This document shows, piece after piece, positions 34,808 through 62,481 of a stretch of DNA of 64,000 bases. The notes beneath the pieces are model-generated. The model was given only the letters and a program-made list of their open reading frames with translations, made no database searches and had not been told where the DNA came from. The position numbers and the translations under genes are program-made. Positions within the stretch are counted from its first letter, which is position 1; each line of letters opens with the position of its first letter. The DNA comes from Olsenella sp. An188 (GTDB taxonomy: Bacteria; Actinomycetota; Coriobacteriia; Coriobacteriales; Atopobiaceae): assembly GCF_002160255.1 (NCBI RefSeq), contig NZ_NFKF01000001.1, positions 372,001 through 436,000 of the forward strand, read 5' to 3'.

Positions 34808-34883
34808 TGGAGCGGGCTACGGGGTTCGAACCCGCGACCTCCACCTTGGCAAGGTGGCGCGCTACCAACTGCGCTAAGCCCGC
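34808..34883 (-). tRNA. tRNA-Gly (GCC), copy 1
   Basis: Acceptor GCGGGCT with AGCCCGC, encoded CCA, anticodon loop TTGCCAA with anticodon GCC. Identical to the copy at 35127. Confidence 0.96.
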
Positions 34884-34896
34884 GACGCAAGGAGAA

Positions 34897-34935
34897 ATAA
34901 TACGGGGAGCGCGCCCGGAATGCAAGCCCCAATTT
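34897..34935 (-). promoter_or_regulatory. tRNA-Gly copy 1 promoter
   Basis: On the minus strand AAATTGGGGCTTGC (34922-34935) contains -35 TTGCAT (34920-34925); TATTAT (34897-34902) follows after 17 bp. Confidence 0.75.
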
Positions 34936-34980
34936 GAGGAAATTCTCGCCCGCGCAAGACGTCCCGGGAGCGGGCAGACG

Positions 34981-35004
34981 AAAAGGGCGCCCCGAGGGGC
35001 GCCC
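34981..35004 (-). terminator. Intrinsic terminator after tRNA-Cys
   Basis: GGGCGCCCC/GGGGCGCCC stem followed by TTTT on the minus strand. Confidence 0.88.
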
Positions 35005-35013
35005 GTCACGTCT

Positions 35014-35087
35014 TGGAGGCGAAGCCCGGATTCGAACCGGGGGTCAGGGCTTTGCAGGCCCGTGCCTTACCACTTGGCCACTTCGCC
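35014..35087 (-). tRNA. tRNA-Cys (GCA)
   Basis: Acceptor GGCGAAG with CTTCGCC, encoded CCA, anticodon GCA within loop CTGCAAA. No good promoter lies directly upstream; it may depend on read-through from tRNA-Gly copy 2. Confidence 0.95.
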
Positions 35088-35092
35088 GTATG

Positions 35093-35115
35093 AAAAAGGC
35101 CGAACGAGTCCGGCC
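35093..35115 (-). terminator. Hairpin between tRNA-Gly copy 2 and tRNA-Cys
   Basis: GGCCGGAC-TC-GTTCGGCC (one G-U pair) followed by TTTTT on the minus strand. Confidence 0.75.
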
Positions 35116-35126
35116 CGGAGCTCACA

Positions 35127-35202
35127 TGGAGCGGGCTACGGGGTTCGAACCCGCGACCTCCACCTTGGCAAGGTGGCGCGCTACCAACTGCGCTAAGCCC
35201 GC
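35127..35202 (-). tRNA. tRNA-Gly (GCC), copy 2
   Basis: Same sequence as the copy at 34808, with encoded CCA and anticodon GCC. Confidence 0.96.
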
Positions 35203-35283: not shown

Positions 35284-36057
35284 TCAGGCGGGGATGCCCG
35301 GAGCTGGGGGAACGTCCGCGTCGGCGGTACCGAAGAGCTTCACGAGCCGCACGACCGTCCCCTCCCCCGAGCTCTTGTGCGCGATGCTCACGGAGTCGGC
35401 GAGCAGGCGCATGAGCCGGATGCCGCGCCCGCGCTCCGCGCACGGCCCCGTCTCGGGGGGCTCCTCGTCCCCGGCGAGCTCGAAGCCGCACCCGCAGTCG
35501 GTCACGTCGATGGTCACGCGGTCGGGGTAGGCGGCCACCGTCGCGAGCACGCCCGTCCCCCCGGTGTGGTCCACCGCGTTGCCGAACGCCTCCCCGGAGG
35601 CGAGCGTCATATCAAACACCTCGTCCGGCGAGAAGGGCAGCGTGGCGAGAAGCCCCTCGAGCCGCTCGCGCGCCTCCCCGAGGGCCGACGAGTCCACCCG
35701 AAACGTCGTGCGCCAGCGCGGGAGCACCGAGGGGTCGAGAGCCGTCACCTCGCGCCGCACGCCGGCGCGCTCGACGGGCATGTAGTCGAGCATCCGCATC
35801 CGGCGTAGCGCCTGGTACACCTGCGGGGACACGTTGACGAGGGAGAGCAGCCCGCCCTGGCGGCGGATGTTTCTCAGCTCGGTGAGGATGAGGCCCATGC
35901 CGGCCGAGTCCACGTGCTCCACGCCGGCCATGTTCATGAAGACGCGACGGCACCCCTGCGCGACGAGGCGGTCCATGCGCCGCCTCACGACGGGCACCGT
36001 CGTGACGTCAAGGTCGGTGCCGACCGAGACCAGCGCTATGTTGGCCCTCTCAGACAT
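35284..36057 (-). CDS. STAS-HATPase fusion (anti-anti-sigma joined to anti-sigma kinase)
   Basis: 257 residues. Residues 1-105 form a STAS domain with the phosphorylatable site HVDSAGMGL (Ser51). Residues 112-250 form an RsbW/SpoIIAB-type ATPase: N-box with Glu156, Asn160 and His164 (EAFGNAVDH), DCGCGF and RGRGIRLMRLL. RsbV- and RsbW-like functions are normally on separate proteins that bind each other; here they share one chain. The upstream gene encodes a PP2C phosphatase that could dephosphorylate Ser51. The target, classically a sigma factor, is not encoded nearby. Confidence 0.86.
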   Translation of the reverse strand: MSERANIALVSVGTDLDVTTVPVVRRRMDRLVAQGCRRVFMNMAGVEHVDSAGMGLILTELRNIRRQGGLLSLVNVSPQVYQALRRMRMLDYMPVERAGVRREVTALDPSVLPRWRTTFRVDSSALGEARERLEGLLATLPFSPDEVFDMTLASGEAFGNAVDHTGGTGVLATVAAYPDRVTIDVTDCGCGFELAGDEEPPETGPCAERGRGIRLMRLLADSVSIAHKSSGEGTVVRLVKLFGTADADVPPAPGIPA

Positions 36058-36086
36058 GCTGTAGATATTCCCAAATCGGGCGGGCT

Positions 36087-38342
36087 CTATCGCGTCGTGC
36101 CCTCCCCGTCCCGGGGCGCGGCCACGTCGAAGCGCAGCGCGAGCATGGCAACGTCGTCCTCGAGGTTGCGACCGGTGAAGTCCTCGAGCGTCGCCAGGAG
36201 GCGGTCGACGAAGCCCTCGAAGGGCTTGTCGCCCTCCGACTCGCGCATCACCATGTCGCGCAGCCCCTCCTCGCCGAAGAAGGAGCCGGACGAGTCACGC
36301 GCCTCCGTCGTTCCGTCGGTGTAGAGCAGCAGCACGTCGTCGCGCTCGAGCCTCACGAGGCCGTCCTGGTAGTTGATGTCGTGGAAGGCCCCCACCACGC
36401 CCGACTGCACGTCGAGGATGGACAGCGCCTCCGCCCCCGCGTGGACCAGAATCGCGGGCGGATGCCCCGCCGAGCAGTAGCGCAGCGTGGCCTCCTCGAG
36501 GTCGATGATGCCCACGAAGAGCGTCGCGAAGGTCTCGAGGCGCGAGAAGCCCAGGAGGAACTCGTTGAGGGAGCGCACCATCCGTGCCGGGGCGAGCCCC
36601 TCCCACGAGTAGGCGCCGAGCGCGGTCTTGACGGCGGCAGAGACCGAGGCGGCCTCGACCCCCTTGCCCGAGACGTCGCCCATGATGACGCAGGCGCGCC
36701 GGTCGGGAAGGCGGATGAGGTCGTAGAAGTCCCCTCCCACCGAGGCCGCCTTCGTCGCGGAGCAGTAGACCGCCTGGGCAGTGATGCCCTCCACGTGCTG
36801 GAGCTCGTTTCTCATGCCGGTCTGGAGCGCCTGGGAGATGCGCTTGTCCTGCTCGCGCGCCTCCTCGCCGAGGGCGATGTCTCGGACGTCCCCGGCGAGC
36901 ATGCGCAGGAACTCGAGCTCTATGTCGTCGAGCGGCTCGGCCCCGTCGGGGCGCAGCACGAGGAAGCAGCGGCGCTCCCCCACGAGCTCGCCGAGGTCCA
37001 CCAGGGCGCCCACGCAGGGCTCCCCCAGGGCGCGCAGCAGCGAGAAGACCTCCGAGTCCGGCGCGACGCTCACCACCGCCACGCCGTCCGAGCGATGGGG
37101 CGCCACGAGCTCCTCGAGGTCGATGGGCAGCTCGCGCGGCCCGTTGAGCGGGAGGTCGGCGAGCACGACGCGCTGGCGGTCGTTCTCGCTCACGCGCACG
37201 ACCGCCGCGTCGAGCTCCTCCCCCGCCTCGGCGAGCGTGTCGCGCAGGATGGAGACGACGCCGTCGCCGCTGCCGTCGGTCGCCGAGGTGAGCAGCTCCT
37301 CGCGCAGCTCGGTCGCGAGCGACGCCAGGCGGTCGGCGCGCTGCGCACGGAGCGTGGTGAAGGCCCCCGCGAGCTGGACCGAGAGGTAGTGGGCCACGGA
37401 GTCGAGCAGGCGCGCGTCCTCCTTCATGAGCGGGTGGAGGCGCCGCCAGCCCACCTCGATGATCGAGATGACGTGGCCGCCGAACCACACCGGCACGGCG
37501 ATGAAGCTCGTGAACGGGGGCACCATGGCACTTCTCATCCGCAGGACCTCGTGGGTGTCCTCGTCGACCACGTCGCGCGTCACGAGGCGCCCCTGGCGCA
37601 GGGCCTCGCTCGTCGGGGCGCAGACCCGCAGGCGCACGGCACGTCCCTCGCGGACCGCCACGCGCTCCACGCTGCGCCCGAAGGGCATGAAGCGCGCGAC
37701 CTTCTCGCCGGAGAGGCCGCTCGATATGCCGCGCAGGTGAAAGCCGTCGGACTCGGCGAGGTACACGATCGTCCCGTCCGCCTCCATCGTGTCGGTCACC
37801 TCCTCGAGCACGCGCTCGAAGAGGGCGGCCACGTCGGTGGAGTCGATCGTGTCGAGCACGATGTTGAGCGTGCCCGAGAGGCGGTGGTTCGCGCGGCGCA
37901 GGTCCTCGATGGCGCGCAGGGCCTCACGGTCCGCAAGGGCGTCCTCGTCGGAGGGCATGGCCACGAGCAGGTAGGTCTCTCCGGGGGCCTGGACGGCCTC
38001 GCAGCGAACGCGAACCTGCGCGAGCTTCCCGTCGGCACGCCTCAGCGGGCAGCGCGTCGGGGAGCCGTCCGTGGTGAAGGGAAGCTGCGACACGTCAAAG
38101 TCGTCCGTCGACGCCTCTGGCTCGTCGGGAGACGGGAAGAGGGCGCGCACGTCGGCCCCCACGAGGCCCTCCGAGATCCCCAGGAGCTCGGAGGCCTCGT
38201 CGTTGGCGAGAAGGACCCTACCGGCCCCGTCGAAGATGAGCACGGCCTCGCACGTGAGCTGCAGGAGGCGCGAGAGGGTCCCGACGAGGCTTCCCTCCCC
38301 GATTCCCTCGACCCGCCTGATGCTGAGCCCCGCCTTGGCCAT
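36087..38342 (-). CDS. RsbU/SpoIIE-type PP2C phosphatase with PAS and GAF sensor domains
   Basis: 751 residues from ATG 38342; a TTG twelve bases upstream is less likely. Order: PAS-like domain (about 20-130), a helix linker, a GAF-like domain (about 165-330), a second GAF-like domain (about 345-490), then the SpoIIE phosphatase domain with GGDFYDLI, VIMGDVSGKG and NLEDDVAMLAL, whose Asp residues bind Mn or Mg. It is cytoplasmic; no membrane helix is seen. It probably senses a small molecule or redox state and acts on the STAS domain encoded 29 bp downstream. Confidence 0.9.
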   Translation of the reverse strand: MAKAGLSIRRVEGIGEGSLVGTLSRLLQLTCEAVLIFDGAGRVLLANDEASELLGISEGLVGADVRALFPSPDEPEASTDDFDVSQLPFTTDGSPTRCPLRRADGKLAQVRVRCEAVQAPGETYLLVAMPSDEDALADREALRAIEDLRRANHRLSGTLNIVLDTIDSTDVAALFERVLEEVTDTMEADGTIVYLAESDGFHLRGISSGLSGEKVARFMPFGRSVERVAVREGRAVRLRVCAPTSEALRQGRLVTRDVVDEDTHEVLRMRSAMVPPFTSFIAVPVWFGGHVISIIEVGWRRLHPLMKEDARLLDSVAHYLSVQLAGAFTTLRAQRADRLASLATELREELLTSATDGSGDGVVSILRDTLAEAGEELDAAVVRVSENDRQRVVLADLPLNGPRELPIDLEELVAPHRSDGVAVVSVAPDSEVFSLLRALGEPCVGALVDLGELVGERRCFLVLRPDGAEPLDDIELEFLRMLAGDVRDIALGEEAREQDKRISQALQTGMRNELQHVEGITAQAVYCSATKAASVGGDFYDLIRLPDRRACVIMGDVSGKGVEAASVSAAVKTALGAYSWEGLAPARMVRSLNEFLLGFSRLETFATLFVGIIDLEEATLRYCSAGHPPAILVHAGAEALSILDVQSGVVGAFHDINYQDGLVRLERDDVLLLYTDGTTEARDSSGSFFGEEGLRDMVMRESEGDKPFEGFVDRLLATLEDFTGRNLEDDVAMLALRFDVAAPRDGEGTTR

Positions 38343-38405
38343 ACGAGCCCCCAACCGTCGTCGTCCGCCCTAGCGTAGCACGCCCCGGCAGGGCGCCTCG
38401 GCAAG

Positions 38406-38443: not shown

Positions 38444-38534
38444 TGGTGTCGGAGGCGGGACTTGAACCCGCACGACCTTTTAGTCAGTCACTAGCACCTC
38501 AAGCTAGCGCGTCTGCCAATTCCGCCACTCCGAC
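38444..38534 (-). tRNA. tRNA-Leu (GAG)
   Basis: Class II tRNA with long variable arm; acceptor GTCGGAG/CTCCGAC, anticodon stem CTAGC/GCTAG around TTGAGGT, anticodon GAG, encoded CCA. Confidence 0.96.
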
Positions 38535-60479: not shown

Positions 60480-62027
60480 ATGCTCGACGCGCGTAACAAT
60501 GACGTATTCGACGTCCTCGTGGTGGGCGCGGGCATCGCGGGCTGCGAGGCCGCGCTCGCGGCGGCCGGTCGGGGGGCGCGCGTGGCGCTCGCGAGCGCGG
60601 GCCCCACGTTCTCCGGATCGAGCTTCTTCGGGGGCACCTGGGGCCTCGGCCTCGTAGGGCCGGACGGCGAGAAGGACGAGGACGACCTCGTGGGCGCGAT
60701 CTGCGAGGTGGGGCGCGGCGTGGCGGTGCCAGAGCTCGCGCGGGCGCTCGTGCGCGGAATCGCTCCGGCGGTGGGGCGCCTCGAGGCTCGCGGCGTGGAG
60801 CTCCTTGGCGCGGACAACCCGGACGAGCGCGACTTCATCCCCTGCTTCGACCGCAAGCGTCGGTGCTGGCACGGGATTGGGCGCGCGTCGTATCGCGCCG
60901 CGACCGAGGCGGCGCTTGCGCGGGCGGGCGTGACGCTGCTCCCCCGCCACGAGCTGCTCGACCTCGTCGAGAAGGACGGGCGGGTCTGCGGGGCCGCGCT
61001 TCACGACGTGCGGTCGGGCACGGCGCGCGTCGTGGCGGCCGGGGCCGTCGTGCTCGCGACGGGCGGCTTCGGCGGGCTCTTCTCGCGCACGCTCACCATG
61101 CCCGACGTCATGGGCACCTCGGCCGCGGTGGCGCTGCGCCATGGCGCGCGGCTCGTGAACGTGGAGTTCATCCAGATCATGCCGGGGCTCGTAGAGCCCG
61201 TGGGCGGCGTCGTCTTCAACGAGCGGACCTTCCGCTACGCACGGGTCGAGGGCGTGGACGGACCGGAGGCGGGCGCCCTTCTCGACGAGCGCGGTGGCCA
61301 CGGGCCCTTCTCGGCGAGCCTGCCAGATCGGGCGGTCGACCTGGCCGTCTCCGCCGCGGGCCCGCGCGGGGCCGCGGTGACCTACGACCTCCCGGAACGC
61401 CTGCCCGAGTTCATGCAGACGTACTTCGACTGGTTCGAGGGCGCGTTTGGGAGGAGTCCCGCCGAGGGCGTGCGAATCGCGCCGTACGCGCACGCCTCCA
61501 ACGGCGGCATCCTCGTCGACGAGCTCGGCTCCACCGGCGTGCCTGGGCTCTTTGCGTGCGGCGAGGCCACGGGCGGGATGCACGGGGCAGACCGCATCGG
61601 CGGGCTCTCGAGCGCAAACGCCCTGGTCTTTGGCCACGCCACCGGGCGCGCCGCCGCCGACTGCGCAGCCTCCGTCGCAGCTCTCGACGGCGAGGCGGGG
61701 CGGCCCCCTCATGCCAGCCCGGACCTGGGCGACCTGAGGCGCGCCATGGACAGGCTCTGCCTGATCGGGCGCACGGACGAGGGGCTGCGCCAGATGGGCC
61801 GCATCCTCGACGAGCTGGACGAGAAGAACGCGCAGGCCGGGTCAGTCCACGCCGCAAACGCGATCCTCTCCGCTCGGGCGCTCGTCACCGCGATGCTGGC
61901 CCGCACGGAAAGCCGCGGCGCCCACTTTCGCGCGGACTTTCCCCAGGAGGACCCCGCCCAGGCGCGCCCGCTCGTCGTCTCGCTCGACGAAGGCGGACGC
62001 CCCGTGGCCGCTACGCCGTCGGCGTGA
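60480..62027 (+). CDS. FAD-dependent oxidoreductase, L-aspartate oxidase/fumarate reductase family
   Basis: 515 residues from ATG 60480. FAD-binding [19 protein letters not shown] and [14 protein letters not shown], active-site region [18 protein letters not shown], second FAD loop [12 protein letters not shown], and the C-terminal [17 protein letters not shown] typical of NadB and SdhA. About as long as NadB, but nadA and nadC are not adjacent and it is the only plus-strand gene among the his genes. L-aspartate oxidase is the best guess; a soluble fumarate or acrylate-type reductase is possible. Confidence 0.78.
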
Positions 62028-62481
62028 GCACGAACTCGCGGACCTCCTCCACCGCAGCCTCGAGGTCCTCGACCACGCCCTCGCTCGCCGCGTCGGAGAA
62101 CTCCCGCGTGAACCCGTAGGCCTCGCCGCTCGATGTTGTGAAGCCCCACTCGGAGCGCTCCCCCAGTCCGTGGTCGCCAAAGACGCGCTGGAAGAAGCCG
62201 CTCGTTGCCACCGCGTAGGCAACGCCCCCGGTGGAGAAGCCCCCGTAGTAGTGCAGAACAAGCGGCACGCGATAGCGCTCCGGGAGGCGCATCACCGCCG
62301 TGAACACGCGGACGTGCCCCTCGCTCGGCATTTGCAGCTGGTTTGCGTAGGCCTCGATGTCCTCCACACGCCGCCACGGGCGCCTGAAGAGCGAGCGGCA
62401 CTCGTTCACGGTCACACGCACGAGCCAGTTGCGCAGGTACGCGTCGGTCTCAAAGCTCTTCTCGCCTGCGTTCTTTGGGCC
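62011..62481 (-). pseudogene. Broken ECF sigma factor gene joined to another coding remnant
   Basis: The minus-strand frame encodes sigma-70 region 2.4 to the start of region 4 (AYLRNWLVRVTVNECRSLFR, RLPERYRVPLVLHYYGGFST). About 60 N-terminal residues with region 2.1-2.3 and any start codon are missing. After FST the expected helix-turn-helix is absent; the frame continues with unrelated residues (FGDHGLGERSEWGFTTSSGE to REFVLTPTA), apparently the end of a different, maybe anti-sigma-like, protein. It overlaps the 3' end of the flavoprotein gene by 17 bases. Best read as a deletion remnant. Confidence 0.68.

Follow-up and report, generated by a model that had tools for sequence, protein, structure and literature searches.

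The window, a 64,000-nucleotide stretch of Olsenella sp. An188 (contig NZ_NFKF01000001.1, positions 372,001 to 436,000), encodes a PP2C sensor phosphatase and, behind it, a protein in which an RsbV-like STAS domain is fused to an RsbW-like HATPase domain. Sequence comparisons make it reasonably probable that this pair supplies the kinase, the antagonist and the phosphatase of a dispersed partner switch controlling a SigB/F/G-type sigma factor, with the antagonist fused to the kinase. The fusion gene (35284-36057, minus strand) is an intact open reading frame (ORF) of 257 residues, with the RsbV-like part at residues 3-96 carrying Ser51 and the RsbW-like kinase part at residues 122-240. The phosphatase gene (36087-38342, minus strand) encodes 751 residues from the ATG at 38342, with PAS, GAF and C-terminal SpoIIE/PP2C domains, and its ORF, also intact, covers 36087-38354 (755 residues) in full extent. 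A spacer of 29 nt (36058-36086, minus strand) separates the phosphatase stop from the fusion start, and the two genes probably form one operon. The two-protein composition given in an earlier note, made from the letters of the window, is thereby upheld, with both ORFs intact and their Pfam domains above the cut-offs.

Both halves of the fusion are recognised as general family members and fall outside the narrower equivalog profiles. The STAS domain (PF01740, residues 3-96) scores 61.1 bits against a cut-off of 22.6, and the HATPase_c_2 domain (PF13581, residues 122-240) scores 65.1 bits against 27.4. The fused STAS also exceeds the cut-off of the anti-sigma-antagonist profile TIGR00377 (59.8 bits, cut-off 53.45) and stays below that of the SpoIIAA equivalog TIGR02886 (44.8 bits, cut-off 114.75); it differs from typical RsbV and SpoIIAA in not being a stand-alone single-domain protein. 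Likewise, the fused HATPase remains below the RsbW and SpoIIAB equivalogs PRK04069 (32.4 bits, cut-off 145), TIGR01925 (31.1, cut-off 135) and TIGR01924 (23.1, cut-off 155.05). The STAS part is nearest to RsbV (E 5.6e-7) and SpoIIAA, and the kinase part matches RsbW (E 2.2e-4). Ser51 sits in a VDSAG motif directly after D50, while the kinase part carries E156/N160/H164, D187-x-G-x-G191 and G210-R-G212, the N, G1 and G2 boxes of ATP binding, respectively. The integrity of Ser51 and the kinase motifs, already claimed from the window, is confirmed by an alignment of this fusion with 40 others of its class, the Coriobacteriia: D50, S51, E156, N160, H164, D187, G189, G191, G210, R211 and G212 are invariant, and all three box patterns are present in 41/41 proteins. 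In a second alignment of 54 fusions, 53 have Ser at residue 51 and one has Thr, and the kinase box residues are again invariant (54/54). The linker between the domains is constrained, because P113 is invariant and W115 is kept in 52 of these 54 proteins. We infer that the fusion is kinase-competent and phosphorylatable at Ser51. An AlphaFold2 model of the protein reached a pLDDT of 88.8 and a pTM of 0.83, the latter suggesting that the two domains are packed in a fixed way, and Foldseek matched its halves to the RsbW/SpoIIAB/UsfX and RsbV/SpoIIAA folds. The top Foldseek match, LvrC, with a root-mean-square deviation of 18.9, was not informative.

The fusion is widespread in the class. In a sample of 236 genomes, each at least 90% complete, it matched 171, and 170 remained after a weak match in G117 (E 2.9e-4) was dropped: 66 in family f1, 51 in f3 and f5 together, and 53 in other families. 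Fifteen families carry it, and in a sixteenth (f7), represented by two genomes, one has it; within this sample it was not found in families f2 (G117 apart), f4, f6, f9 and f10. Eighty fusion loci lie on named contigs, by their titles from Olsenella, Thermophilibacter, Tractidigestivibacter, Atopobium, Collinsella, Enorma and uncultured relatives, which titles and lineages place within the Coriobacteriia; the fusion forms one continuous ORF in 79 of them, of which 77 rows are distinct and two (L232 and L286) are duplicates, and in the remaining locus (L269) it runs off the contig. This survey, which the earlier note had called for, disposes of the concern raised there that a stop between the domains might have been lost only in this assembly. 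An assembly or frame error joining two genes, in favour of which nothing was found, is refuted by full-length fusions throughout the class and retains practically no probability.

Outside the class, the same two domains occur as separate genes. The fusion profile matched 260 of 396 genomes in a sample of the phylum, mostly by one domain, and among the matches listed at least 22 places outside the class hold both domains, each with at least one stop inside. We fetched 18 of these 22 loci (G449, G375, G247 and G569 being left out), and in all 18 the STAS and HATPase domains are encoded by separate neighbouring ORFs, STAS first, 0-27 nt apart, so that the domain order of the fusion equals this gene order. 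Within these class and phylum samples, the fusion is seen only in the class.

The phosphatase partner is kept along with the fusion while its sensor region changes. In the window protein, SpoIIE (PF07228, residues 550-742) scores 155.9 bits against a cut-off of 25; GAF_2 reaches 44.6 bits (cut-off 28.6) and PAS_8 22.8 bits (cut-off 21.8). The closest solved sequence is Rv1364c (chain 3ke6_A, E 2.6e-18). In an alignment of 41 PP2C proteins of the class, D538 and D556 are conserved in 40 rows and D676, D729 and D730 in all 41; we take these aspartates to be metal-binding. The sequence thus reads as an RsbU-type SpoIIE/PP2C phosphatase with a PAS-GAF sensor, its activity being predicted. We examined 40 fusion loci and, for the sigma factor described below, 40 sigma loci, both sets picked for spread over families and not at random. 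At the fusion loci, the PP2C gene lies upstream of the fusion on the same strand in 39/40; the two genes overlap or are at most 350 nt apart in 37, about 1 kb apart in L132 and L142, and inverted in L141. Across the 80 named-contig loci, 77 have the same upstream, same-strand arrangement, one is inverted (L250), and no PP2C gene was found in L240 and L243. The PP2C ORFs span 599-848 residues in 23 of the 40 loci (the own family and its order) and 846-1172 residues in the other 17 (other orders). Their sensor domains vary from PAS plus GAF in the window protein to GAF alone in one f3 protein and HAMP with repeated GAF in three long ones, which indicates that the input differs while the kinase-phosphatase pair is kept. 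The tRNA genes that flank the operon (34808-35202 and 38444-38534), a Gly-Cys-Gly set and, at the opposite end, Leu(gag), are all on the minus strand as well.

A candidate target is encoded elsewhere in the same genome (2.14 Mb, 16 contigs, six Sigma70_r2 matches). On contig C15, the protein P0003 is an intact SigB/F/G-type sigma factor (TIGR02980, 285.4 bits, cut-off 234.35) with sigma regions 2, 3 and 4 all over the cut-off (PF04542, PF04539 and PF04545). The ATG of its gene overlaps the end of an ORF of 122 residues (P0002), residues 3-49 of which match the NCBIfam RsbW profile with an E-value of 2.1e-5. When a profile of 41 P0002 rows was aligned by hhalign with the fusion kinase domain, the probability was 90% over 113 columns, compared with 0.1% for the STAS domain as a control, and profile comparison thus points to a distant RsbW homologue only. 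The N-box Asn is absent from all 41 rows, where its column shows Tyr (35 rows), Phe (5) or Trp (1). One row has a D-x-G-x-G string, three others have a G-x-G string, and no row has both. R21, D40, E47, F49 and D99 are invariant. P0002, which we call the box-less RsbW, is probably a kinase-dead anti-sigma factor, with both the loss of kinase activity and the holding of sigma predicted. No sigma gene was seen adjoining the window pair, in line with the earlier note. The only sigma-like fragment remarked on in the window (62011-62481, minus strand) gave a weak Sigma70_r4_2 match (20.5 bits, cut-off 25.7) and was rejected as a partner; it is a degraded sigma-like remnant with no sign of a SigB-type factor. 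At another locus (L024:5663-7356), a protein with sigma-70 region 2 is followed by a gene whose sequence we read as resembling an RsgI-type anti-sigma factor.

The box-less RsbW and the sigma factor track the fusion through the class sample. Of the 170 fusion genomes, 168 also matched the box-less RsbW, against 0/66 of the genomes lacking the fusion. SigBFG matches over the cut-off occur in 167 genomes, namely the 170 minus G114, G052 and G088; in G088 the box-less gene lies at a contig end. The box-less gene is followed by the SigBFG gene in 40/40 fetched loci, a set selected on the basis of the same two genes. G114 has the fusion but neither box-less RsbW nor SigBFG nor an alaS match, a gene that its congener G107 carries some 1.5 kb past the sigma match; since alaS is missing as well, the sigma region is probably absent from the G114 assembly. 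The suggestion of the earlier note that the switch may have a non-sigma output had been drawn from the window alone, and it is not supported in view of this co-occurrence of an intact sigma gene and its overlapping RsbW-like gene with the fusion.

The genome of Olsenella sp. An188 holds one of each kind of part. STAS was matched twice, once in the fusion and once in a free RsbV-like protein of 110 residues (C10:217893-218222) with the motif DSTGIGVLVG. Two proteins exceed the HATPase_c_2 cut-off, the fusion and a histidine kinase, and no other RsbW-type kinase was recognised in this genome. SpoIIE likewise exceeds the cut-off twice, in the window phosphatase and, as a partial match (26.5 bits, cut-off 25), in a second protein read as a PPM/Stp-type phosphatase. 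The free STAS gene sits behind a TPR gene, an arrangement that recurs: among 21 loci (L019:7040-8226 being one), 17 have a TPR gene upstream of the free STAS on the same strand, immediately adjacent in 14, and the TPR protein is possibly a component of the circuit. All 17 loci inspected in families f1 and f3 are free STAS ORFs. As a query, the free STAS matched 170/170 fusion genomes and, weakly, five f2 genomes; the match is strong in all 117 fusion genomes of f1, f3 and f5 (E at most 1.4e-18), and in the other 53 it may represent another STAS, the fusion's own included. At four loci of the class outside the own order (L321-L324), a second STAS ORF in the opposite orientation overlaps the first or sits next to it, with a TPR gene near in 3/4.

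These parts could operate as follows. At rest, the kinase domain of the fusion would phosphorylate Ser51 of the attached STAS, either within one chain or between the partners of a dimer, and might do the same to the free STAS protein. The phosphorylated STAS would not bind the box-less RsbW, which would then hold the sigma factor. Upon a signal, the PP2C phosphatase would strip the phosphate from the STAS, and the unphosphorylated STAS (fused, free or both) would capture the box-less RsbW, thereby releasing sigma. The double duty of classical RsbW as kinase and anti-sigma factor would in this way be split over two proteins, with the antagonist tied to the kinase. As the STAS and the kinase share one chain, phosphorylation may act within the molecule, and the earlier suggestion of an intramolecular switch fits the RsbV-type STAS, the RsbW-type kinase and their PP2C partner, with Rv1364c as a precedent. 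We further put forward, tentatively and as a possibility that may well fail, a self-resetting antagonist: the dephosphorylated STAS would capture the kinase-dead anti-sigma factor, and only the fusion's own kinase would end the signal, so that timing would be set by that kinase against the phosphatase rather than by a kinase of the anti-sigma factor, an arrangement kept through the class.

Several observations weigh against the proposed sigma-controlling switch. P0002 scores below every curated RsbW cut-off (HATPase_c_2, 13.0 against 27.4 bits; NCBIfam RsbW, 24.0 against 145 bits), and several HATPases encoded beside separate STAS genes outside the class are also without G boxes, so that box loss alone does not depend on the fusion. 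The presence and absence of the fusion follow families (it is missing from f2, f4, f6, f9, f10 and one of the two f7 genomes), and the co-occurrence therefore reflects few independent loss events, not 168. One genome, G052, carries the fusion with neither box-less RsbW nor SigBFG over the cut-off, which is possibly an assembly gap (94% complete, 110 contigs). Within the own genome, the fusion (C1), the sigma operon (C15) and the free STAS (C10) are unlinked and lie on different contigs. Finally, SigF-type autoregulation was considered and rejected, as the promoter pattern GTTT-N12-18-GGGWA was found upstream of none of the PP2C (0/41), box-less RsbW (0/41), sigma (0/40), free STAS (0/17) or TPR genes (0/13), with ORF starts assigned mechanically. 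Upstream of the fusion, the pattern occurs in 4/40 regions against 0.54 expected from 50 shuffles, which preserve base composition only.

Alternatively, the fusion could control a non-sigma output, such as another STAS target or an enzyme, with the sigma pair unrelated to it. None of the 40 class loci searched has a SigBFG gene next to the fusion, G052 shows the fusion without the sigma pair, and the five genomes of genus g13 (G132, G166, G183, G212 and G219), with 10-13 SpoIIE and 3-6 STAS matches against two each in, for example, G142, may hold further circuits. We nevertheless regard such an output as improbable, given the presence of the box-less RsbW in nearly all fusion genomes and in none of the others, the lack of another recognised RsbW-type kinase in the own genome, and the missing alaS of the exceptional G114. 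A different objection concerns which STAS does the work. The fused domain might be only a regulatory or docking part, the real antagonist being the free RsbV-like STAS, phosphorylated by the fusion and dephosphorylated by the PP2C protein; the free gene with its DSTGIGVLVG motif, its strong matches in 117 genomes, its stand-alone ORFs at the 17 inspected loci and its TPR neighbour would all suit this role. A mere docking part, however, would not need the Ser or Thr that is kept at position 51 in all 41 and all 54 aligned fusions, and the same two domains are neighbouring genes outside the class, like the substrate-kinase pair rsfB-rsbW2. This alternative has some weight, and we judge it somewhat unlikely. 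The division of labour could also be the reverse of the one proposed, with the HATPase domain of the fusion acting as anti-sigma factor, like classical RsbW, and the 122-residue protein having another part. The resemblance of the HATPase half of the model to SpoIIAB, RsbW and UsfX would allow this; it is the 122-residue protein, however, whose gene overlaps sigma, in the order of rsbW1-sigF, and the box-bearing kinase of Mycobacterium smegmatis does not bind SigF according to PMC7693655. We therefore give this reversal little credence.

If the proposed switch is correct, a SigB-type response exists in many Coriobacteriia, the gut genera Collinsella and Olsenella among them. Titles and abstracts of the open-licence literature yielded no description of such a response or of a partner switch in the Coriobacteriia, nor of a protein that joins STAS and kinase but carries no phosphatase domain. 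The resulting parts list, with one kinase-antagonist fusion, phosphatase, free antagonist, box-less RsbW and sigma factor each, can be tested in vitro. After M. smegmatis, the system would provide another natural example of RsbW's kinase and anti-sigma duties being kept apart, and it would show the consequence of an antagonist and a kinase that are unable to part.

Known systems share many of these features in other combinations. The RsbU/RsbV/RsbW/SigB system of Bacillus comprises a PP2C phosphatase, a STAS antagonist, a GHKL kinase and a SigB-type sigma factor, with RsbV as a separate protein. The RsbW of this system is described in PMC7693655 as both kinase and anti-sigma factor. The Olsenella system has the same types of parts, whereas the roles of RsbW appear to be split, the V component and the kinase are fused, and the genes are dispersed. 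In the Actinoplanes SsdA system, an antagonist-type domain is reportedly fused to the sigma factor, and we know of no kinase fusion in it; the parts joined are different from those in the Olsenella protein. SsdA is presented in PMC10733313 as an unusual sigma/anti-sigma arrangement in an actinomycete. Rv1364c of Mycobacterium tuberculosis (3ke6) resembles the window pair in tying together a PP2C domain, an RsbW-type kinase and a STAS domain with a PAS sensor, and it is reported in PMC10950880 to autophosphorylate and dephosphorylate its own STAS serine. In contrast to its single PAS-PP2C-kinase-STAS chain, the domains here are distributed over two proteins, and the fusion has the order STAS-kinase instead of kinase-STAS.

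The closest parallel is the SigF switch of M. smegmatis. In the account of PMC7693655, RsfB has as its kinase RsbW2, which does not bind SigF; SigF is bound by RsbW1, which did not phosphorylate RsfB. According to PMC10950880, rsfB and rsbW2 form one operon, and the nearby PP2C protein RsfR acts on phosphorylated RsfB. Judged from these sources, both systems place the kinase and anti-sigma roles on different RsbW homologues (here a prediction from sequence), have the anti-sigma gene (again a prediction here) in an operon with the downstream sigma gene, and have a STAS that adjoins the kinase with a PP2C nearby. As in M. smegmatis, the box-bearing RsbW (C1) lies apart from the sigma operon (C15), with its STAS adjacent, in this case as a fusion. 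By the same comparison, the fusion would correspond to RsfB plus RsbW2, the window phosphatase to RsfR, the box-less RsbW to RsbW1 and the sigma factor to SigF. The Olsenella system differs in that the STAS and the kinase form one chain, the PP2C protein carries PAS and GAF domains in place of a receiver domain, and a free STAS is encoded apart, beside a TPR gene.

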